From the NCBI RefSeq assembly GCF_010977555.1, contig NZ_CP048815.1:5014501-5078500 (forward strand): a stretch of 64,000 nucleotides of DNA, given 5' to 3'. Positions 1 to 10,686 of the stretch are shown piece by piece. Position 1 is the first letter of the stretch. Each line of letters starts with the position of its first letter. The notes beneath the pieces were generated by a model. It ran no database searches, was not told the DNA's origin, and saw only the letters and a program-made list of their open reading frames with translations. This stretch comes from Caulobacter rhizosphaerae (lineage in GTDB: Bacteria; Pseudomonadota; Alphaproteobacteria; Caulobacterales; Caulobacteraceae). Both the position numbers and the translations under genes were made by a program.

Positions 1-643
1 AGACGCTGATGCAGTCCAGCGAGCGACAGGCCGGCACCAGGCCCCGCGTGCTCCAGCGGCCCTTGCTGGGCTTGAGGCCGACCAGGTGGTTGAACGCCGC
101 CGGCACCCGGCCCGAGCCGGCCGTGTCGGTGCCGAGCGCGAAGGCGACCAGGCCGGCCGCCACGGCGACGGCCGAGCCGGAGCTCGAGCCGCCGCTGACG
201 AACGCCTGGTTGAACACGCAGCGCGGCGCGCCGTACGGACTGCGAGCGCCCACCAGGCCGGTGGCGAACTGGTCGAGATTGGTCTTGCCGATCAGCACCG
301 CTCCGGCCGCGACCAGCCGTTCGACCACGGTCGCCGAGCGCGCCGGCGTGTAGGCGAAGGCCGGGCAGGCGGCGGTGGTCGGGTAGGCGCCGACGTCGAT
401 ATTGTCCTTCACCGCGAACGGAACGCCGGCCAGGGGCAGGGTCTCGCCGGCGGCGACGCGGGCGTCGACCGCCCGGGCCTGGGCCAGAACCGCTTCGGCC
501 GGCAGGCGCAGGATCCAGACCTGCGGCTGGACTAGGTCGTATTCCCCGATCGCGTCCAGGGCCGCCTGGGCGACCTCGATCGCGCTGGCGCCGGCGTTCA
601 CGGCGGCGGCGATGGCTTCGACGCCCAGGCGCTCGAAACTCAC
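1..643 (-). CDS. atzF: Allophanate hydrolase, N-terminal part (cut by window edge)
   Basis: Amidase-signature enzyme that hydrolyses allophanate to ammonia and CO2, the last step of ATP-dependent urea or guanidine breakdown. The translated minus strand shows the Ser-cisSer-Lys amidase core: Lys about 79 in AVKDNID, the GGSSSGS loop near 151-157, and the nucleophile in DTAGSGRVP near Ser177. The GTG start at 643-641 overlaps the TGA stop of the carboxylase, so the two are translationally coupled. About 214 residues are visible; the family is usually near 600, so the C-terminal part lies outside the window. The identification is secure from motifs plus context. Confidence 0.9.
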
Positions 644-3600
644 GCGGCGGCCTCCAGGTCGGGGGTCACGGCGATGACGGGCGCGCCCGCGGCGATGGCC
701 TGCGAAGGCTGGGCGTAGACCGCGCTGACGACACCGGCCACCGGGGTGGAGACGTCGCACTCGGCTTTCATGGCCTCGATGATCGCGATGACCGCACCCG
801 CCTCGACCCGCTGCCCCGGCTCGACCAGCACCTTCCAGACATTGCCGCCCAGCGGCGCCTCGACCAGATCCGCGCCCGGCGGGACCTGGACGGCTTCCGT
901 CTCCGTCTCGGCGTCGGCCACGCTGGACAGCGCCTCGACCCGCGCGAACTCGCCCCTGGCCTCCCAGTCGGCGCGCTCGGCGTCGAACGCGGCCTGGCGG
1001 TTGGCCTGGAAGGCGGCGATGCCCTCGGCGTTCTCGGCCAGCATCCTGCGGTAGTCCGAGAGGCGGAATGTCTCCTCCTCGATGCGGATCCGGCGGCGGC
1101 CCAGCGGGAAGTCGCGCCGCCATTCGGTCAGCTCCTCGGCGCTGACCGGGAAGAAGCGGATCTGGTCGAAGAAGCGCAGCAGCCAGGGCTTGCCGTCGGT
1201 GAAGGCCTCGGTCTGCCGCCAGGTGTTCCAGACCTGAATCGTCCGGCCGAACAGTTGGTAGCCGCCCGGCCCCTCCATGCCGTAGATGCACATGTAGGCC
1301 CCGCCGATGCCGACGACGTTCGGCGGCGTCCAGGTGCGGGCCGGGTTGTACTTGGTGGTCACCAGGCGGTGGCGCGGGTCGACGGGGGTGGCCACCGGCG
1401 CGCCCAGATAGACGTCGCCCAGGCCCATCACCAGGTAGCGGGCGTCGAACACGATCCGGCGGACGTCCTCGATGCTGTCGAGGCCGTTGGCGCGACGGAT
1501 GAATTCGATGTTGTCCGGGCACCAGGGCGCGTCGTCGCGGACGGCCTGCATGTACTTGTCGATCGTCTGGTAGATCGCGGGATCCTTCCAGCTCAGCGGC
1601 AGGTGGACGACGCGAGAGGGGATCTCGAAGTCGTCCAGCCCGCCCAGCCGGTCCTCGGCGGCGATCAGGATCTCCAGCAGCCGCGCCTGGGTCAGGCGGC
1701 GGCTGTCGTAGTGGACCTGCAGAGAACGGATCCCGGGCGTCAGGTCGATGACGCCGGGCAGCGCCAGGCTTTGCAGGTCGAGCAGCAGGGCGTGGATCCG
1801 CAGACGCAGCTCCAGGTCCAGCACGATCGGGCCATACTCGACCAGCAGGTGCTGGTCGCCCTGGCGGCGATAGGTGACGTGCGGGCGGTGACCGTCGGCG
1901 GGGAGTTCGGCCAGGATGGGGCTGTCCCCCTCCGTCGGCTTCGCCGCCACCTCCCCCAGGGGGGGAGGATCTATGGCGCCCAGATGCTCCCCCTCTGGGG
2001 GAGCTGTCGCGGAGCGACTGAGGGGGCTCACCGCGCCGAGCAAAGCTTCCTGTTTGGAAAGAGCGGAAGCCGCCGCCGCGTCGTCCACGACCGCGAAGCG
2101 GACGGTGTCGCCCGGCGCCAACTGGCCGGCCTTCCAGAGGTCGGCCTGGATGATCACGAACGGACAGACAAAGCCGCCCAGCGACGGACCGTCCGGACCC
2201 AGGATGATCGGCATGTCGCCGGTGAAGTCGACCGCCCCGATGGCGTAGGCGTTGTCGTGGATGTTCGAGGGATGCAGCCCGGCCTCGCCGCCGTCGCGCC
2301 GCGCCCATTCGGGCTTGGGCCCCACCAGGCGCACGCCAGTGCGGTTGGAGTTGTAGTGAACCTTCCAGTCCGTGCCGCCGATCATGGCGACGTCGGCCGG
2401 CGTGAAGAAGTCGGGGGCGCCGTGGGGGCCGGGCAGGACGCGGATCGTCCAGGCCTTGTCCAGGACGGGACGCAGGGTAGACGGCAGGGGCGAGGTCGGG
2501 GACAGGCACATGTGCCTGTCCCCATCAGTCAACCGCAGCGCGTCGCCAGCCGTCAGGTTCCGACCGGCATGGCCGCCGAAACCGCCCAGGGTGAAGGTCG
2601 AGCGGCTGCCCAGATAGGCCGGTACGTCCAGCCCGCCCTGGAACAGCAGATAGCCGCGCAAGCCCGCCTCCAGCGCCCGGCCGATCTTCAGCACCTGGCC
2701 GGGCTGGACGGTGAGCGGCGCGTAGAGCTCGACCGGCGCCCCGTCCAGACGAGCATCGAACCGCGCGCCGGTCAGGCAGACGACGGCGGCGCGGTTGAAC
2801 TTCAGGGTCGGGCCGAGGGCGGTGATCTCCAGGCCGGCGGCGTCCGCGCCATTGCCCAGCAGGCGATTGCCCAGCCGGAACGACAGGGCGTCCATCGGTC
2901 CCGAGGGCGGCACGCCGACGTCCCAGTAGCCCTGGCGGCCCGGCCAGTCCTGAACGGTGGTGGCGGGCCCGCCGCTCAGCACCTGGACGGTGTCGGGCGT
3001 CCAGGCCACGGTCTCCAGGGCGCGGGTCGAGACCTCGCCGCTGACGAACGGCGCGCTGCGGACCACGGCGCGCAGCCAGTCCAGATTCGTCTCAATGCCC
3101 GAAAGGCGAGTGTCGTCCAGCGCCTGCTGCAGCGCCGCCACCGCCGCCACGCGGTCCGGAGCGGTGACGATCAGCTTGGCCAGCATCGGGTCGTAGAAGG
3201 CGCTGACCTCGGTCCCGTCGACCACCCAGCCGTCGGCCCGGACGCCGCCCGGGAACACGACCTCGGTCAGGACGCCCGAGCTGGGTCGATAGTCCTGCGC
3301 CGGATCCTCGGCATAGAGCCGCACCTGGATCGACGCGCCTCGGGGTTCGGGCGGCGGGGCGTCGAGAAAGGCGAAGTCGCCGGCCGCGCCGCGCACCATC
3401 CACTCGACCAGGTCCACGCCTGTGACCTGCTCGGTCACCCCGTGCTCGACCTGCAGGCGGGTATTGACCTCCAGGAAGAAGAAGTCGTCGCGATCGGCGT
3501 CGTACAGGAACTCGACCGTGCCGGCGGACTTGTAGTTCGCCGCCGAGGCCAGGCGCACGGCGGCGTCCAGCAGGGCCGCGCGGGTGGCGGCCGGCAGGCC

Positions 3601-4332
3601 GGGGGCGGGGGTCTCCTCGACGACCTTCTGGTTGCGCCGCTGCAGCGAGCAGTCGCGCTCGCCCAGGGCCACGACCTTTCCGGCGCCGTCGCCGAACACC
3701 TGCACCTCGACATGGCGCGCCTTGCGGACATAGCGCTCCAGGAAGACGCCGCCGTCGCTGAAATTGCCGGTGGCCAGGCGCTGGACGGCGGCGAAGGCCT
3801 CCTCGACCGCCTCCGCGCTCTCGCAGACGCGCATGCCGATGCCCCCTCCCCCGGCCGTGGCCTTGAGGATCACGGGGAAGCCGATCCGCTCCGCCGCCTC
3901 GCGCGCGGCCTGGGGATCGACCAGCAGGTCGGTGCCCGGCGCCAGCGGCACGCCGTGGGCCTGGGCAAGGTCCCGCGCCGTGTGCTTCAGGCCGAAGGCG
4001 CGGATGTTGTCGGGCGTGGGACCGACGAAGGCGATCCCGGCGTCCTCGCACGCCTGGGCGAACGCGGCGTTCTCGCTGAGGAAGCCGTAGCCCGGGTGGA
4101 TGGCCTGGGCGCCCGTGGCCTTGGCCGCCGCCAGCACCAGGTCGGCGCGCAGATAGCTCTCGGCGGCCGGGGCCGGGCCCAGGCGCACGGCCTCGTCGGC
4201 CAGGGAGACGTGCAGCGAGCCGGCGTCGGCGTCGCTGAATACGGCCACCGACTTCACGCCCATGGCCTTCAGGGTGCGGATGATGCGGCAGGCTATGGCG
4301 CCGCGATTGGCGATCAGGACCTTGTCGAACAT
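640..4332 (-). CDS. uca: Urea carboxylase / guanidine carboxylase, biotin-dependent
   Basis: 1230-residue multidomain enzyme that carboxylates urea or guanidine using ATP and bicarbonate. Domains in order: biotin carboxylase (about 1-445, ATP-grasp loop [11 protein letters not shown]), KipA/AHS2-type carboxyltransferase half (about 455-765), KipI/AHS1-type half (about 820-1030), and a C-terminal biotinyl domain with the EAMKAE site, biotinylated Lys about 1189. It starts 9 bases after the upstream DUF1989 gene stops and overlaps the allophanate hydrolase start. Two genomic palindromes lie in frame within it, one in the AHS2 domain (around residues 604-612) and one in the AHS2-AHS1 linker (around 767-804); neither creates a stop. 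With two DUF1989 partners the substrate is more likely guanidine than urea, but this is inference. Confidence 0.92.
1922..2032. repeat. CTCCCCC-type inverted repeat inside the carboxylase gene
   Basis: Two facing copies of a GC-rich palindromic unit, CTCCCCC...GGGGGAG, each followed by a short second stem, lie within the coding region. The same unit type appears as an intergenic repeat at 43,432-43,542. Here it encodes roughly 39 residues, rich in Pro, Glu, Ala and Ser, in the linker between the two carboxyltransferase-like domains and keeps the frame open. Confidence 0.8.
2498..2523. repeat. Perfect 26-bp palindrome inside the carboxylase gene
   Basis: GGGGACAGGCACA followed by its exact reverse complement, then GACCTC on the minus strand. 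The copy at 19,881-19,912 has the same palindrome with one paired base change and the same GACCTC flank. Here it is read through as about nine residues (GDRHMCLSP) in a loop of the AHS2 domain. Confidence 0.85.
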
Positions 4333-4341
4333 GGCGCGGTC

Positions 4342-4968
4342 CTACTGGGCGATGATCATGCGCACCGGCGTCGGATTGAAGCCGTTGCAGGGATTGTTGA
4401 TCTGCGGGCAGTTGGAGACCACCACCACCACGTCCATCTCGGCGCGCAGGTCGACATAGAGGCCGGGCGCGGAGATCCCGTCGACAATGCCCAGGGCCCC
4501 GTCGACCTCGACGGGGACGTTCATGAACCAGTTGACGTTGCTGACCATGTCGCGCTTGCCGCGGCCCTGGCCGGCGTTGGCGACCAGGAAGTTCTCGACG
4601 CAAGCGTGCTGGGCCTTGGTGTGGTGGCCGTAGCGCAGGGTGTTGCTCTCGCACGAGCAGGCCCCGCCGATGGTGTCGTGATAGGCCACGGCCGTCGCCG
4701 TCACCGTCATCATCGGCGCCCCCTCGTTGGACAGCAGCACCGAACCCTCGCGCAGGAAGATGTTGTTCTGGGCGGCGATGGTGTCCTGGGCGCTGTAGCG
4801 CTCGGCGTCGTCGGCGGCGCTGTAGGCCAGGAAGTCGACGGCCTGGTTGCCCTCCAGGTCGACGATGCGCAGCGTCTGGCCCGCCTTGACCGTATGCAGC
4901 CAGGGGGCGCGGGCGGGAACCACCTCGTCATGGACGATGTCGTTCAAGGCGGGGGGATCGAACGCCAT
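4342..4968 (-). CDS. DUF1989 urea carboxylase-associated protein; likely carboxyguanidine deiminase subunit
   Basis: 208-residue DUF1989 (urea carboxylase-associated) protein. Conserved features include GNQAVDFLAY near the N terminus, GACSCESN and QHACVENF with cysteines that may bind metal or substrate, and a closing VVSNCPQINNPCNGFNPTPVR. DUF1989 pairs encoded with this carboxylase have been shown in other bacteria to be carboxyguanidine deiminases (CgdA/CgdB), converting carboxyguanidine to allophanate. The ATG at 4968 was chosen because GAGGA sits about 8 bases upstream; it lies 11 bases after the preceding DUF1989 gene. Which of the two paralogues is CgdA cannot be told here. Confidence 0.85.
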   Translation of the reverse strand: MAFDPPALNDIVHDEVVPARAPWLHTVKAGQTLRIVDLEGNQAVDFLAYSAADDAERYSAQDTIAAQNNIFLREGSVLLSNEGAPMMTVTATAVAYHDTIGGACSCESNTLRYGHHTKAQHACVENFLVANAGQGRGKRDMVSNVNWFMNVPVEVDGALGIVDGISAPGLYVDLRAEMDVVVVVSNCPQINNPCNGFNPTPVRMIIAQ

Positions 4969-4979
4969 TGCCAGGGTCC

Positions 4980-5804
4980 TCAGCGCGAAAAGTAATCTTC
5001 GACGTTCAGGAAGGCGCGGAGGCCTTCGGGCGTCGCGTTGCGGATCGGGTCGTCCTGCGGCGTGACCGCCCCACGCCAGGCGGTGGCGCGCAGCGGGGTG
5101 ACGGCGTAGTCCGGGCGGGGGTCCAGCACGTGCGGGCAGTTGGCCAGGACCACGATCAGGTCCATCTCGGCGCGCAGGGTCACGAACCGGCCGGGCGCGT
5201 AGGGGCCGACGTCGATCACCGTCTCGCCGCCCTGGCCAATGCGGACCGCCTTGAACAGGTTGAGGCAGGGGTGGATGTCCTTGCGACCCAGGCCGAACTT
5301 GGCGACGCCCAGCGAGAAGCGGTCGCGGGCGTTGGGATGGGCGCCATGATTGAAGCCGTCGCCATACTTGCGGGCGTTGCTGGCCTGGTTTGAGGCGCCG
5401 CAGAAGGCGTCGTGCGTGCCGGCCTCGTCCTCGACGAGGCTGGCCAGCACCCGGCCCATGTCGGACAGCAGCAGGCGGCCCGGGCCGAGATAGCCGTTCC
5501 ACTGCACCTTCAGGGTGTCGGCGATGTTCAGGCGCTCGATCGGGCGCTCGGCGTTGAAAATCAGCAGCGAGACGGACGCGTCGCCGGCCAGGTCGGTCAG
5601 ACGCAGGCGCGAGCCTCGGGCGATCTGGCGGCTGGCGTAGCCTCCGGGCGCGATGATCTCGTCCCAGACGACATCGCCGGCCAGGACGCCCGGCGGCAGG
5701 TCGACGGCGGCGCGGGCCGGGACGGTGGGCATGGCCTCGACGCGGGTTCCCGCCTGGGCGCGGGCGTGAGCCTGGGCGGCGTAGGGCGTCGCGGTGTCGC
5801 TCAC
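4980..5804 (-). CDS. DUF1989 urea carboxylase-associated protein, second paralogue
   Basis: 274-residue DUF1989 protein, longer than its neighbour at both ends. It shares the family pattern: GDASVSLLIFNA, HDAFCGASN, HPCLNLFKAV, LRAEMDLIVVLANCPHVLDP. The ATG overlaps the stop of the NikR-like gene (ATGA), so expression is probably coupled to the regulator. The two DUF1989 proteins are expected to form a heteromeric deiminase acting between the carboxylase and allophanate hydrolase. The family is certain; the substrate is inferred from published carboxyguanidine deiminase work and the operon. Confidence 0.85.
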   Translation of the reverse strand: MSDTATPYAAQAHARAQAGTRVEAMPTVPARAAVDLPPGVLAGDVVWDEIIAPGGYASRQIARGSRLRLTDLAGDASVSLLIFNAERPIERLNIADTLKVQWNGYLGPGRLLLSDMGRVLASLVEDEAGTHDAFCGASNQASNARKYGDGFNHGAHPNARDRFSLGVAKFGLGRKDIHPCLNLFKAVRIGQGGETVIDVGPYAPGRFVTLRAEMDLIVVLANCPHVLDPRPDYAVTPLRATAWRGAVTPQDDPIRNATPEGLRAFLNVEDYFSR

Positions 5805-6277
5805 GGGGCCTCTCCGTCGGGCTCGTCGCCGTGGAAGTGCAGCGGCGGCAGCAGGGCGGTGGTGGTGACAAGCTTGATCTGTTGGACGCCGCGCACCTTG
5901 CGGAGGTCGTCACACAGGTTCTGCAGGCGCTCGGACGGGCCTTGGACCAGCAGGACCTCCATGGCCTGGTCGTCTTCCAGGAAGACGTTCTGAGCCGAGA
6001 TCACTTCCTTCACGTAGCCCAACTGGGCCTGGGCCAGGGCGTGACGCACCCGGCCGCTCTCGGCGCGATAGATCAGGGTGATGGTGCCGGCCAGCACCGC
6101 GTCGGGGCGTTCGCCGCTGTGCTCGGCCAGTTCATGGCGGATCAGTTCGGCGATCATCTGCGAGCGGCTGGGCAGGCCGCGCTCGGCCACCATGGCGTCG
6201 AGCTGGGCCATCAGGTCGGCCGGCAGGCTGATGCTCAGCCGCGCCAGGGTGGAAGAGGGCGTGTCCATGTCGGGCAT
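5801..6277 (-). CDS. NikR-like ribbon-helix-helix regulator lacking nickel ligands
   Basis: 158 residues. An N-terminal ribbon-helix-helix (about 11-50: LARLSISLPADLMAQLD, then SRSQMIAELIRHEL) is followed by an ACT-like C-terminal domain of NikR type. Aligned by eye to E. coli NikR, the nickel ligands His76, His87, His89 and Cys95 fall on Leu, Asn, Phe and Ala. The ligand is therefore probably not nickel; a small nitrogen compound is a reasonable guess. An HFH motif near the C terminus could bind something else. First gene of the operon, overlapping the next by ATGA. An inverted repeat 9-37 bases upstream suggests autoregulation. The start could instead be Met4 (6268). Confidence 0.82.
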   Translation of the reverse strand: MPDMDTPSSTLARLSISLPADLMAQLDAMVAERGLPSRSQMIAELIRHELAEHSGERPDAVLAGTITLIYRAESGRVRHALAQAQLGYVKEVISAQNVFLEDDQAMEVLLVQGPSERLQNLCDDLRKVRGVQQIKLVTTTALLPPLHFHGDEPDGEAP

Positions 6278-6286
6278 CCATCGGCG

Positions 6287-6314
6287 ATATTACGAAGGAT
6301 GCAATATGTAATAC
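6287..6314. promoter_or_regulatory. Predicted operator of the NikR-like regulator
   Basis: ATATTAC, a 14-base spacer, then GTAATAC: 28 bp overall with six of seven bases paired between the half-sites. E. coli NikR also recognises a 28-bp inverted repeat (6-16-6). It sits just upstream of the regulator's start, where it would cover the operon promoter. Confidence 0.65.
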
Positions 6315-6488: not shown

Positions 6489-9400
6489 TCAGAAGGTCGC
6501 GCGCGCCGTCAGGGTGTAGGTGCGACCGTCATAGTCGACCCAGCGCGAGACCCGATGGTCGTTCTCGTATTCGAACCGCTTGGCGTTGGTCAGGTTGTAG
6601 GCGTCCAGCGACAGGGTGAAATTGTCGGTCACATTGTAGGAGGCCGACAGGTCCAGCTGGCCGCGCGGCTTCACCGAGCGGGCGCCGCCGGTGTAGGTGC
6701 CGTTGGCGTTCAGCGGGTAGTCCGAGCGGTAGTTGTAGACCATGCGCACGCCGTACTTCGGCGTCTCGTAGTAGCCGATCACGTTGACATTGTGCTTGGA
6801 GATGCCCGGGAAAGGCGCGATCGCCGGGCTCTTGGACATGGTGTAGGCGTAGTTGAAGCTGCCGCCGAGGTTCGCCAGGAAGCCCGGCAGGAAGTCGAGG
6901 TTCTGCTGGATGTTGAACTCGACGCCCTCGACGGTGGTCTTCTTGTCGAGGTTGTAGGCGCCGCTAGCGTTGACGTGCACCTGCTTGCTGGCGCTGGAGA
7001 GGCTGGTGGCGTTGCAGTAGGTGCCGTCCCACGACAGGGCGCCGAAGCCCCAGGTCGAGCCGTCGGCCGGGCACAGCAGGGCCGGATCCGAGGTCGAGGC
7101 GATGCGGCCGGTGATGTTCTTGCGGAAATAGGCCAGCGAGATCAGGCCGTTGGGGCGGTTGTACCACTCCAGCGACAGGTCGAAGGACTCGGCCAGATAG
7201 GGCCGAAGCTTGTTGTTGCCGATCGCCACCGAGACGTCATAGACGTTGACCGAGCCCGAGCTGAGGCTGTTGTTGAGGATCTGGGCCGGGTTGACCTTGG
7301 TCGAGGGCGAGTACTGGCGCGGGTGCGGACGCACATAGGTCTTGTAATAGGCGCCGCGCAGGATCAGGTCGTCGGTGACGTCGGCCACGAAGATCGCCGA
7401 CGGCAGGAAGTAGTGGTACTTGTTCTTGTATTCATCGGTCTTGAAGTCGTTCGGCGAACCGATCGAGTCCGTGGGCGGGGTGACGCGGTCCAGCGTCGTG
7501 ATGGTGTTGTCGGTGTCTTCGTAGCGTCCGCCGAAGTTGCCGCGCACGCCGTGGCCGAAGATCTGGGTGTCGTACTTGGCCTGGACGTAGAACTGATTGA
7601 TATCGTTCTCGTTGGTGAAGTTCTTGTCGTAATAGCTGCTGTCGGCGTACTGAATGTTGAAGCCCTGGGTCGACAGGCCGCCGCTCTGATAGGGCGTGAC
7701 CGGACGGACGGCGTCCAGGAAGTCGTGGACGTTCAGGACCTGCCAGTTGTGGCTGTAGCCGTCGACCGAGCCGCCCATGAAGTCCTTCACGAACGGGGCG
7801 GTGATCATCATGCTTGAGGTGATCTTGCTCAGTTGGGCGCCGTAGGCATAGACCCGGTAGCCGGTCGACACGTACTTTTCGCGCTCGAGACGCACGCCGG
7901 CCTGCACGCTCTTGATCGGGCCGAGCGAGACGAAGCGCTCGACGTCCAGCGCCACGCTGTTGAGCTCGTTCTTGGCGAAGCTCTCGGTGCCTTGGATCTG
8001 GATCTGGTTGGTCGAATTGGCGGATGTGCCGTTGTTGTAGAACGAGGTGGGATCGTTGGCGCCGCCCCAGGTCCAGGTCTGGCCGCTCGCGATCGCGTTC
8101 TGCGGCGTGGGCGACGTCGTGTATTGGAAGCCGCCAATGTCGTCCAAACCGGTGGTGATCGAGCCGGAGACGCCGTTGCCGCCGGGGCGGGTATAGTTGT
8201 TGACGTCGACCTCGGTCTCGACCGAGGCGTTGGAGCCCGACGACAGGGTCAGCGCCCCGGCGAAGCGCCAGTCTTCGTTGCTCCAGTCGACATTGCCGAT
8301 CACCCCGTCCGACTTCTGGCGCTGCGAATAGAGGCGCGTTGAGGACAGGGCGTTGATATTGTTGAACGTATAGCTCTCGTACAGGTAGCGGCCGTCATTG
8401 GTCTGGATCGGCGTGCCGGTCGGGGTGATCACCGTGCCCGCGCCGGGGGTCGAGGACGGCGCCACGTAGTTGATCATGAAATACTGGGTGGTGTCGGGCA
8501 GGTTGCGATCGGTCTTGAAACCGATCAGGCCGATCTTGGTGTTGTCGTTCGGCTTCCATTCGAACCCGGCCGAACCCGACCAGACCTTACCGACGTTCAT
8601 GCGGGTGTATTGGCGGATGGCCGAGTTGGCCCAGACGCCGTTCGTGCCCTTCGAGCCGGTGTTGCTGGTGACATAGGGCGACGCATTCGCCTGCGACAGG
8701 CCCAGGGCCTGGCCGAGCGAGCGGCAGTACGAGGTGGCGCTCAGGGCGCAGGCGGTCGGTGAGAAGTACTGGCCATAGGCGGCGTTGAACTGGGTGGGCG
8801 CCAGGCCCGTCATCGCCGAGGTCAGATAGTCGTAATTGTTCAGCCGGATCGTGTCGCGGCGGAAGTTTTCCTTTTTGTAGGCGATGGTCCCGAACACCGC
8901 GAGGTCGTCCGTCAGGTGCTTGTTGTAACCCAGGGTCGCGGCCGGGGCGTTCAGGTCGCCCAGGGTGTTGTGCTCGTAGGACAGCTTGGCGAAACCGCCA
9001 TCCTTGCGCGACAGGGCCGGCGCGATCTGCAGGTCGACATTGCCCGAAAGGCCGCCGGACACGGTGTTGGCCATCGGCGACTTCTGGATCACGAAGGCCG
9101 AGAAGATGTCGGAGTTGAACGCGCCCAGCGGCGAGCCCTGGTTGTCGCGCAACAGGGCGGGGCCGGCGAACGACTGGCCGTTCAGGGTGTTGCGGGCGTA
9201 TTCGCCCGGCATGCCGCGCAGGTTGATAGTGGCGTCGCGGCCCTCGGCCTCGCGGTTGATCTGGACGCCCGGAATGCGCTGCAGGGCCTCGCCGACGTTC
9301 AGGTCCGGGAAGCGGCCCAGGCCGTCCGACGAGATGCCGTCGGTGATTTCGATGGCGTTCTTCTTGGCGCGAACGGCGTTGGCGTAGCTCTGCTTGAAGC

Positions 9401-9554
9401 CGGTCACGACGACCGCGTCGAGCGTATCGCCTTGGGACGCAGCCTGGGGCGCGGCAGATTCCTGCGCTGCCGCAAGGGCGGGCAATCCTCCAATGACGGT
9501 GGCCGACAGCAGCGCGACCCTCAAGGCGCCCATGGATCCGGTTCTCAAGCTCAA
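6489..9554 (-). CDS. TonB-dependent outer-membrane receptor (Xanthomonas/Caulobacter type)
   Basis: 1021-residue receptor with signal peptide (about 1-30, ending ALAAAQES), TonB-box-like TLDAVVVTG near 44-52, plug domain (SDGLGRFPDLNVGEALQRIPGVQI, INLRGMPGE) and a beta-barrel ending in aromatic Phe (LTARATF). It resembles the TIGR01782 group, commonly used for importing sugars or oligosaccharides, but no neighbour reveals the ligand. The start is taken as TTG at 9554 because AAGGAGG lies about 8 bases upstream; the next Met (MGAL) has no such site. A strong terminator follows, so the gene appears monocistronic. Confidence 0.9.
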   Translation of the reverse strand: MSLRTGSMGALRVALLSATVIGGLPALAAAQESAAPQAASQGDTLDAVVVTGFKQSYANAVRAKKNAIEITDGISSDGLGRFPDLNVGEALQRIPGVQINREAEGRDATINLRGMPGEYARNTLNGQSFAGPALLRDNQGSPLGAFNSDIFSAFVIQKSPMANTVSGGLSGNVDLQIAPALSRKDGGFAKLSYEHNTLGDLNAPAATLGYNKHLTDDLAVFGTIAYKKENFRRDTIRLNNYDYLTSAMTGLAPTQFNAAYGQYFSPTACALSATSYCRSLGQALGLSQANASPYVTSNTGSKGTNGVWANSAIRQYTRMNVGKVWSGSAGFEWKPNDNTKIGLIGFKTDRNLPDTTQYFMINYVAPSSTPGAGTVITPTGTPIQTNDGRYLYESYTFNNINALSSTRLYSQRQKSDGVIGNVDWSNEDWRFAGALTLSSGSNASVETEVDVNNYTRPGGNGVSGSITTGLDDIGGFQYTTSPTPQNAIASGQTWTWGGANDPTSFYNNGTSANSTNQIQIQGTESFAKNELNSVALDVERFVSLGPIKSVQAGVRLEREKYVSTGYRVYAYGAQLSKITSSMMITAPFVKDFMGGSVDGYSHNWQVLNVHDFLDAVRPVTPYQSGGLSTQGFNIQYADSSYYDKNFTNENDINQFYVQAKYDTQIFGHGVRGNFGGRYEDTDNTITTLDRVTPPTDSIGSPNDFKTDEYKNKYHYFLPSAIFVADVTDDLILRGAYYKTYVRPHPRQYSPSTKVNPAQILNNSLSSGSVNVYDVSVAIGNNKLRPYLAESFDLSLEWYNRPNGLISLAYFRKNITGRIASTSDPALLCPADGSTWGFGALSWDGTYCNATSLSSASKQVHVNASGAYNLDKKTTVEGVEFNIQQNLDFLPGFLANLGGSFNYAYTMSKSPAIAPFPGISKHNVNVIGYYETPKYGVRMVYNYRSDYPLNANGTYTGGARSVKPRGQLDLSASYNVTDNFTLSLDAYNLTNAKRFEYENDHRVSRWVDYDGRTYTLTARATF

Positions 9555-9868: not shown

Positions 9869-10198
9869 CTAGGCGCCCGGCCGCTCACAGTCCGCGTCCA
9901 GGACGGGACGCATGAAGCTGCGCTGGTAGCTGACGATGCAGCGGGTCCGGTCGGCCAGGGCCAGGGCCTCCTGGCATCGGCGATCCCCAGGGATGCTGGC
10001 GCGATAGGCCTCATAGGCGGCCAGACTGGGAAAACTGAACAGCGCCACGGCGATGTTGTTGGCGCCCTCGCCGGGCAGGAAATAGCCGTGATGGATCCCG
10101 CCCATCCGGTTGACCAGCGGGATCCACAGTTTCGCATAGGCCTCGAACTCGGCCAGCCTGTAGGGGTCGATGACGTAGCGCAGGTAGCAGGTGATCAT
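9869..10198 (-). CDS. NIPSNAP family protein
   Basis: 109-residue protein with the NIPSNAP alpha-beta barrel pattern: an opening ITCYLRYVIDPYRLAEFEAYAKLW, then HHGYFLPGEGANNIAVALFSFPSLAAYEAYR. Members are small dimeric proteins of poorly known function, often near oxidoreductases. The ATG at 10198 has GGGAGC 7-12 bases upstream. It lies downstream of the rhodanese gene on the same strand (68-base gap) and may share its transcript. No catalytic role is claimed. Confidence 0.75.
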   Translation of the reverse strand: MITCYLRYVIDPYRLAEFEAYAKLWIPLVNRMGGIHHGYFLPGEGANNIAVALFSFPSLAAYEAYRASIPGDRRCQEALALADRTRCIVSYQRSFMRPVLDADCERPGA

Positions 10199-10266
10199 GT
10201 GAACGCTCCCTTCGGCCGACTTGGCATGGACCCCGCGCGCGACGCGGTTCCCCGCAGCGAGGACGG

Positions 10267-10686
10267 TCAGGCCGCCAGGGTTCCCGGCCATGTTCCGGTC
10301 GCGAACGGCAGGCCTTCGTCTCTCCAGCCGGTGATCCCGCCAATCATCAGCTTCACGGGGCGGCCCAGCGTCGCCAGCTTCAGCGCGGCCCGGTCGGCGC
10401 CGTTGCAGTGCGGTCCGGCGCAATAGACCACGAACAGGGTGTCGGCCGGCCATTCAGACATCCGCTCGGCCGTGATCTCGGCGTGGCGCAGGTGGATCGC
10501 GCCGGGCACATGGCGGCGGGCATAGGCCTGCGGCGAGCCGACCACATGCAACAGGACGAAGTCCATCTCGCCAGCCTTCATCGCGGCAGCGACGTCGGCG
10601 CAGTCGGTCTCCAGGGCCAGGCGGCGGGCGAAGTGGGTGGCGGCTTCCGGCGACGGCGCGGCGGGGATGGCGGAAACAAAGCTCAT
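10267..10686 (-). CDS. Rhodanese-domain protein
   Basis: 139-residue single-domain rhodanese. The HVPGAIHLRHAEI segment and the active-site loop VVYCAGPHCNGA, with the catalytic Cys, fit sulfurtransferases that move sulfane sulfur or act in detoxification. The start at 10686 is supported by GAGGAGG eight bases upstream. It is divergent from an FtrA-type regulator 86 bases away, a pairing I recall from other proteobacteria, so FtrA probably controls it. The natural sulfur donor is unknown. Confidence 0.85.
   Translation of the reverse strand: MSFVSAIPAAPSPEAATHFARRLALETDCADVAAAMKAGEMDFVLLHVVGSPQAYARRHVPGAIHLRHAEITAERMSEWPADTLFVVYCAGPHCNGADRAALKLATLGRPVKLMIGGITGWRDEGLPFATGTWPGTLAA

Follow-up and report, generated by a model that had tools for sequence, protein, structure and literature searches.

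A NikR-fold protein as a candidate guanidine-responsive repressor in Caulobacter rhizosphaerae and other Pseudomonadota

There are three described systems against which the locus considered here should be set. The first is the guanidine carboxylase pathway (Gca, CgdAB, AtzF), which passages of PMC12508155 and PMC12186494 describe as controlled elsewhere by riboswitches. The second, the guanidine-I riboswitch (ykkC, RF00442), has as its target cluster an ABC importer, cgdA, cgdB, guanidine carboxylase, and allophanate hydrolase. The cluster described below is made of the same genes, but the riboswitch is an RNA aptamer acting in cis, unlike the protein found beside them here.

The third system is NikR, known from E. 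coli and H. pylori, in which nickel promotes the binding of the protein to DNA. The nickel ligands of the E. coli protein are H76, H87, H89, and C95, in a square-planar arrangement. NikR is treated as a nickel repressor in the passages of PMC2667541 that concern it. Among the papers listed by searches of the literature, none reports the regulator described below.

A NikR-like protein in a guanidine operon

The window is a stretch of 64,000 nt from Caulobacter rhizosphaerae (NZ_CP048815.1, positions 5,014,501 to 5,078,500). On its minus strand, at 5801..6277, it encodes a protein of 158 amino acids with the RHH and ACT-like fold of NikR, in the same order: an RHH domain (residues 13-51), then an ACT-like NikR_C domain (residues 63-139; 68.8 bits, cut-off 22), the one NikR_C match in the genome. 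The solved structures closest to it by sequence are NikRs (2bj1, E 1.2e-21). An earlier note, made from the sequence, had ascribed NikR architecture to the protein and suggested a structural comparison, which agrees: all 50 Foldseek matches listed for a predicted model (mean pLDDT 76.8, pTM 0.55, 51 sequences) are NikR chains. Unlike NikR, however, the protein falls below the cut-offs of all five NCBIfam nickel-regulator models that it matches (93.5 bits against a cut-off of 105, 81 against 111, 60.6 against 119, 60 against 83, and 58.5 against 175), it has lost the nickel ligands, and its predicted target is a set of guanidine genes.

Those genes lie downstream of the regulator on the same strand. 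The first two encode the DUF1989 subunits of carboxyguanidine deiminase: CgdA (UAAP1; 4980..5804; TIGR03425, 296.9 bits, cut-off 205.95) and CgdB (UAAP2; 4342..4968, with the start set by eye from the family match; TIGR03424, 341.1 bits, cut-off 284.7). They are followed by a biotin-dependent guanidine carboxylase at 640..4332 (TIGR02712, a model named for urea carboxylase, 1824 bits) and by the 5' part of an allophanate hydrolase gene at 1..643 (TIGR02713, 760.4 bits, cut-off 511), which runs past the left end of the window (full ORF L006:15360-17261, start set by eye). An ABC importer operon, convergent with that of the regulator, encodes a binding protein that matches TIGR03427, "putative urea ABC transporter", at 556.8 bits. 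Just upstream of the regulator and on its strand is a TonB-dependent receptor gene (6489-9554; TIGR01782, 618.7 bits), which was not found beside the regulator in related loci.

The earlier note had called this a nitrogen-waste operon, and its type can now be specified. Guanidine carboxylases need Asp at the positions of K. lactis 1584 and 1330, and their operons CgdA and CgdB, according to passages of PMC11410670 (2024 Nature). The window's carboxylase has D973 and D702 at these positions, both diagnostic residues of the pathway, and CgdA and CgdB are both above their family cut-offs; the operon is of the guanidine type. The guanidine-type Asp is found in all 47 related loci that are readable at 702 (two of them unreadable at 973), out of 51 with a carboxylase match. 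Equivalents of both residues also occur in 14 more clusters, in loci L067 and L068, and in two Acinetobacter clusters (L069 and L074).

The arrangement recurs elsewhere, as the earlier note's idea of a ligand-poor NikR next to DUF1989 genes in other genomes would have it. In 51 of 58 related loci, cgdA begins within 200 bp after the regulator on the same strand; of the remaining seven, two end too early and five are arranged otherwise. Caulobacter crescentus, which is used as a laboratory model, also has such an operon (CCNA_01902-06), and a passage of PMC8552747 describes it as upregulated in the cold. Judging by the Caulobacter vibrioides locus (L014), I infer that this operon includes the regulator gene.

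The former nickel site and the traits of the subfamily

Aligned to E. coli NikR (taken from NC_000913.3), the window's protein has L86, N97, F99, and A105 (codons within 5963..6022, minus strand) in place of H76, H87, H89, and C95. The alignment comprises 313 rows. Group A has 182 of them (180 distinct): the window, the related loci, two plasmid loci, and the best 120 of 1906 homologues. Group B has two (G399/L086 and G732/L104), group C has 122 (the best 120 of 345 homologues plus L069 and L074; those rows bearing organism names are all Acinetobacter), and seven are other NikRs. The homologues are the nearest among the matches listed, so diversity is under-sampled.

Among these closest relatives in group A, the position of H89 is occupied by Phe (172 rows) or Leu (10), never by His; that of C95 by Ser (151), Ala (29), or Cys (2); and that of H76 by His in just 3 rows. 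The position of H87 is another matter, with His in 152 rows and Asn in 30. Thus the earlier note's claim that all four ligands are replaced stands for the lineage of the window and not for the wider subfamily, where H87 is mostly retained. Group B has R-H-H-T at the four positions, keeping H87 and H89, and group C mostly Q-H-Q-I/V; six of the seven other NikRs have H-H-H-C. Because H87 persists in most relatives and an HxH in group B, some metal role is formally possible. Some relatives also have His-x-His in the tail, where histidines are elsewhere variable or absent.

In group A, E91, Q96, F99, and E101 occupy the positions of E. coli L81, L86, H89, and N91. The acidic residues by the old pocket differ among the three clades, and since groups B and C diverge from group A at most pocket positions, the chemistry of the pocket is a guess.

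Loss of ligands may have occurred elsewhere in the fold. A NikR of Sphingobium sp. V4 (L073 3980-4483), outside the guanidine subfamily, has H-L-R-S at the four positions and is accompanied by a site of the E. coli type (GTATGAA..TTCATAC, L073:5321). It may be another NikR that lost nickel.

Other traits join the three groups and separate them from NikR. The ACT-like domain is followed by a C-terminal motif, [AS]hhP[PQ][LI] (ALLPPLH-type in the window's protein), present in 181 of 182 rows of group A, both of group B, and all 122 of group C, that is, in 305 of 306 subfamily rows as against none of the seven other NikRs. In 304 of the 306, Gln replaces Glu30 of E. coli NikR, a potassium-site residue. 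In a tree of 36 rows hand-picked from the 313, the three groups fall together on one side of a branch with support of 93/96, a value just under the program's star and subject to its long-branch warning. The Acinetobacter-type regulators are 29-32% identical to that of the window.

Five loci, from Phenylobacterium and other Caulobacteraceae MAGs, carry a second copy of the regulator (L036 10521-10943; L051, L054, L055, and L057 at about 10001-10435), with a guanidine cluster nearby in four of the five. Exactly these five copies have Gly, not Ser, where the DNA-binding strand of E. coli NikR has T5, and none has an operator upstream. Perhaps they have different DNA targets or act as antagonists.

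The operator and its targets

A palindrome of 28 bp, ATATTACG-N12-TGTAATAC on the plus strand (6287..6314), is the predicted operator. Its core, TATTAC-N14-GTAATA (6288-6313), lies 10 bp 5' of the regulator's ATG. The genome of 5.96 Mb has the perfect core at two places, and the second (C1:5010053) is 39 bp before the ATG (L006:12119) of the ABC importer operon. The genome has no core site with one mismatch. It has ten with two mismatches, making 12 places in all compared to 15 for a reversed-pattern control, so only the two perfect sites are meaningful. The E. coli-type TATGAC-N14-GTCATA, which counts as two mismatches, is absent from the ten.

With at most one mismatch, the palindrome occurs 85 times in the related loci, in 56 of the 58, as against no occurrence in one simulated counterpart (first-order Markov) of these 953,554 bases. 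The sites refine the consensus to TATTACG-N12-CGTAATA. Such a site ends 8-35 bp before the script-set start of 52 of 59 regulator genes. The other seven are the five second copies, L062, and L009; the last does have an operator, the script having set its start too far upstream. The binding-protein gene is found in 31 loci, and near its start there is an operator in 22, the locus ends first in six, and there is none in three (L034, whose binding protein is 34% identical, L048, and L052), which amounts to 22 of the 25 loci that cover the stretch. By comparison of genomes, it is well supported that the regulator controls the guanidine genes.

The operator resembles that of NikR without being the same. 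The NikR consensus, GTATGA-N16-TCATAC, can be located upstream of E. coli nikA, where the site is GTATGACGAATACTTAAAATCGTCATAC, i.e. GTATGACG-N12-CGTCATAC. The window has instead ATATTAC-N14-GTAATAC. The frame of 28 bp is equal; what differs is a single core base in each half-site and a single outer base. The guanidine consensus likewise shares with NikR that frame, the outer GTAT...ATAC, and the inner ACG...CGT; it differs from the nikA site at base 5 of the half-site, T/A and not G/C.

Distant members of the subfamily have the guanidine-type operator as well. In Acinetobacter, sites with 0-1 mismatches precede cgdA (L074:1860), the regulator (L074:8838 and L069:7836), and the ABC permease gene (L074:14192 and L069:15472); the binding-protein gene, which there follows the regulator and allophanate hydrolase genes, has no operator of its own. 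In G399, a site with one mismatch lies between the regulator and the ABC importer (L086:2048). The relative in G732 stands apart from the guanidine cluster and has an operator of the E. coli NikR type. It is divergent from a creatininase-like and a glutamine-synthetase-like gene (L104 8804-11579; named by eye), and a similar pair is found within the guanidine cluster of G399 (L086 5594-7836). These genes possibly serve substituted guanidines.

Exchange with riboswitches and the nature of the ligand

Then there is the distribution of the regulator. In a survey of Alphaproteobacteria, CgdB was above its cut-off in 15 of 289 genomes (18 with weaker matches being excluded), and three from Caulobacterales, identified by their carboxylase, bring the set to 18. 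Twelve of these have a guanidine-I riboswitch, within about 4.5 kb of cgdB in 11 (in G381 it is on another contig), and exactly the other six have the regulator at more than 100 bits; three of the twelve have weak NikR matches elsewhere (36.6-48.5 bits). In a survey of Pseudomonadota, which shares five genomes with the first (G000, G037, G161, G361, and G399), CgdB was above cut-off in 41 of 398. The riboswitch is present in 34, each with one on the contig of cgdB and within about 7 kb of it. A regulator near the cluster is found in all seven genomes that lack guanidine-I (scoring 196-229 bits, at most about 8 kb from cgdB) as against none of the 34 that have it, although these include G732, with its relative (169 bits) elsewhere, and six with weak matches (22-85 bits), likewise elsewhere. 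Fisher's test gives p values of 5e-5 for the 18 genomes and 4e-8 for the 41, ignoring kinship. The seven cases fall in three families (f1, f17, and f74), so the independent events of exchange are few.

No operator with at most one mismatch was found in 13 stretches with riboswitch-type clusters (12 from the guanidine-I genomes, plus L105), nor at any of the eight readable binding-protein genes. Conversely, guanidine-I was found neither in the window's genome nor in the NikR-like clusters scanned, and seven related loci had no guanidine riboswitch in an Rfam scan. Since the riboswitch searches capped the candidates scored in each genome, they may have overlooked a weak aptamer. The Rfam scan of the window gave no match, and in the importer stretch a glycine riboswitch alone reached its cut-off, with no guanidine aptamer. 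The glycine riboswitch (L006 6017-6107, minus strand, 65.7 bits) is to the left of the window, and the genes around it, named by eye, resemble those of glycine cleavage.

I propose, as the probable reading, that the protein is a dedicated repressor of the guanidine regulon, relieved by guanidine, that stands in place of the guanidine-I riboswitch. A tetramer, as in NikR, would sit on the 28-bp operators upstream of the regulator and importer genes and block transcription of the regulon: the guanidine ABC importer, CgdA/CgdB, guanidine carboxylase, allophanate hydrolase, and the regulator itself. Guanidinium entering the cell would bind the ACT-like domains, probably in or beside the remodelled nickel pocket, and lower the affinity for DNA, thus inducing the regulon. 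The protein would then do the job done by the guanidine-I riboswitch in most other Pseudomonadota genomes examined. Repression is suggested by the position of the operator, which lies 8-35 bp ahead of the start codon. Since induction by the substrate is to be expected of catabolic genes, the effect of the ligand would have the opposite sign to that of nickel on NikR. That guanidine is the bound ligand I infer from the exchange with guanidine-I, which favors guanidine over urea.

The same regulon might nonetheless answer to a different inducer. The earlier note had named guanidine, carboxyguanidine, or allophanate, and the last two, along with urea, are possible signals, less likely than guanidine. 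Many catabolic repressors do sense intermediates, and the additional genes in the Acinetobacter and G399 clusters (2OG oxygenase, creatininase-like, glutamine-synthetase-like) suggest substituted guanidines, methylguanidine for example. But the importer acts ahead of any intermediate and bears the same operator, and the riboswitch that the regulator replaces is, according to a passage of PMC12508155, specific for guanidine in one species. An inducer other than guanidine seems unlikely.

That the protein still senses a metal (nickel, copper, cobalt, or zinc), by way of H87, tail histidines, or new ligands, and so ties the guanidine operon to a metal, is less probable still. H87 and the His-x-His tails of some relatives speak for it, as does the statement in a passage of PMC8552747 that nickel could regulate the urea-carboxylase operon of C. 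crescentus. Against it, H89 is replaced in all 182 close relatives and C95 in 180, and the tail histidines come and go. Nor do the two perfect operators and a search for urease give a sign of control over nickel uptake or nickel enzymes: guanidine genes stand behind both sites, and the genome has no match to urease. Least credible is an autorepressor that merely sets the level of the operon with no ligand, as RHH proteins can do, given a tail motif kept throughout the subfamily and missing from other NikRs, and given that the regulator sits where a ligand-dependent riboswitch sits elsewhere.

As a putative guanidine-relieved repressor, the protein is a candidate sensor of guanidine whose operator and regulon are defined. 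I lean, though only slightly, towards a wider proposal: that the regulator is the first guanidine-sensing protein transcription factor, its metal pocket turned into a guanidinium site and its operator shifted by one base per half-site, and that it has reached Caulobacteraceae, Sphingomonadaceae, another alphaproteobacterial lineage, and Acinetobacter, where it replaced guanidine-I or works beside guanidine-II. If true, a metal sensor has become a sensor of an organic cation, protein and RNA have been interchanged in the control of one pathway, and a protein part is at hand for guanidine biosensors.

Coexistence with guanidine-II is already visible in the window's own genome, where, at L093 4921-5312, an SMR gene of the SugE type (138 bits, cut-off 126) has such a riboswitch (50.4 bits) 24 bp in front of it. 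SugE-type SMR proteins are in part guanidine exporters, according to PMC7736828. Probably, then, one genome uses RNA for the export of guanidine and protein for its assimilation. In G399, besides the regulator, there is a guanidine-II riboswitch (46.6 bits) at cgdA/cgdB. On an Acinetobacter plasmid (L069), the regulator has for neighbors an SMR gene, a 2OG oxygenase gene, and a guanidine-II-like element (30.8 bits, just below the cut-off of 32), a set resembling the methylguanidine operon described in PMC12508155. The other Acinetobacter locus (L074) is on NZ_CP077849 of A. baumannii, which is recorded as a plasmid and, at 3.66 Mb, is probably the chromosome.
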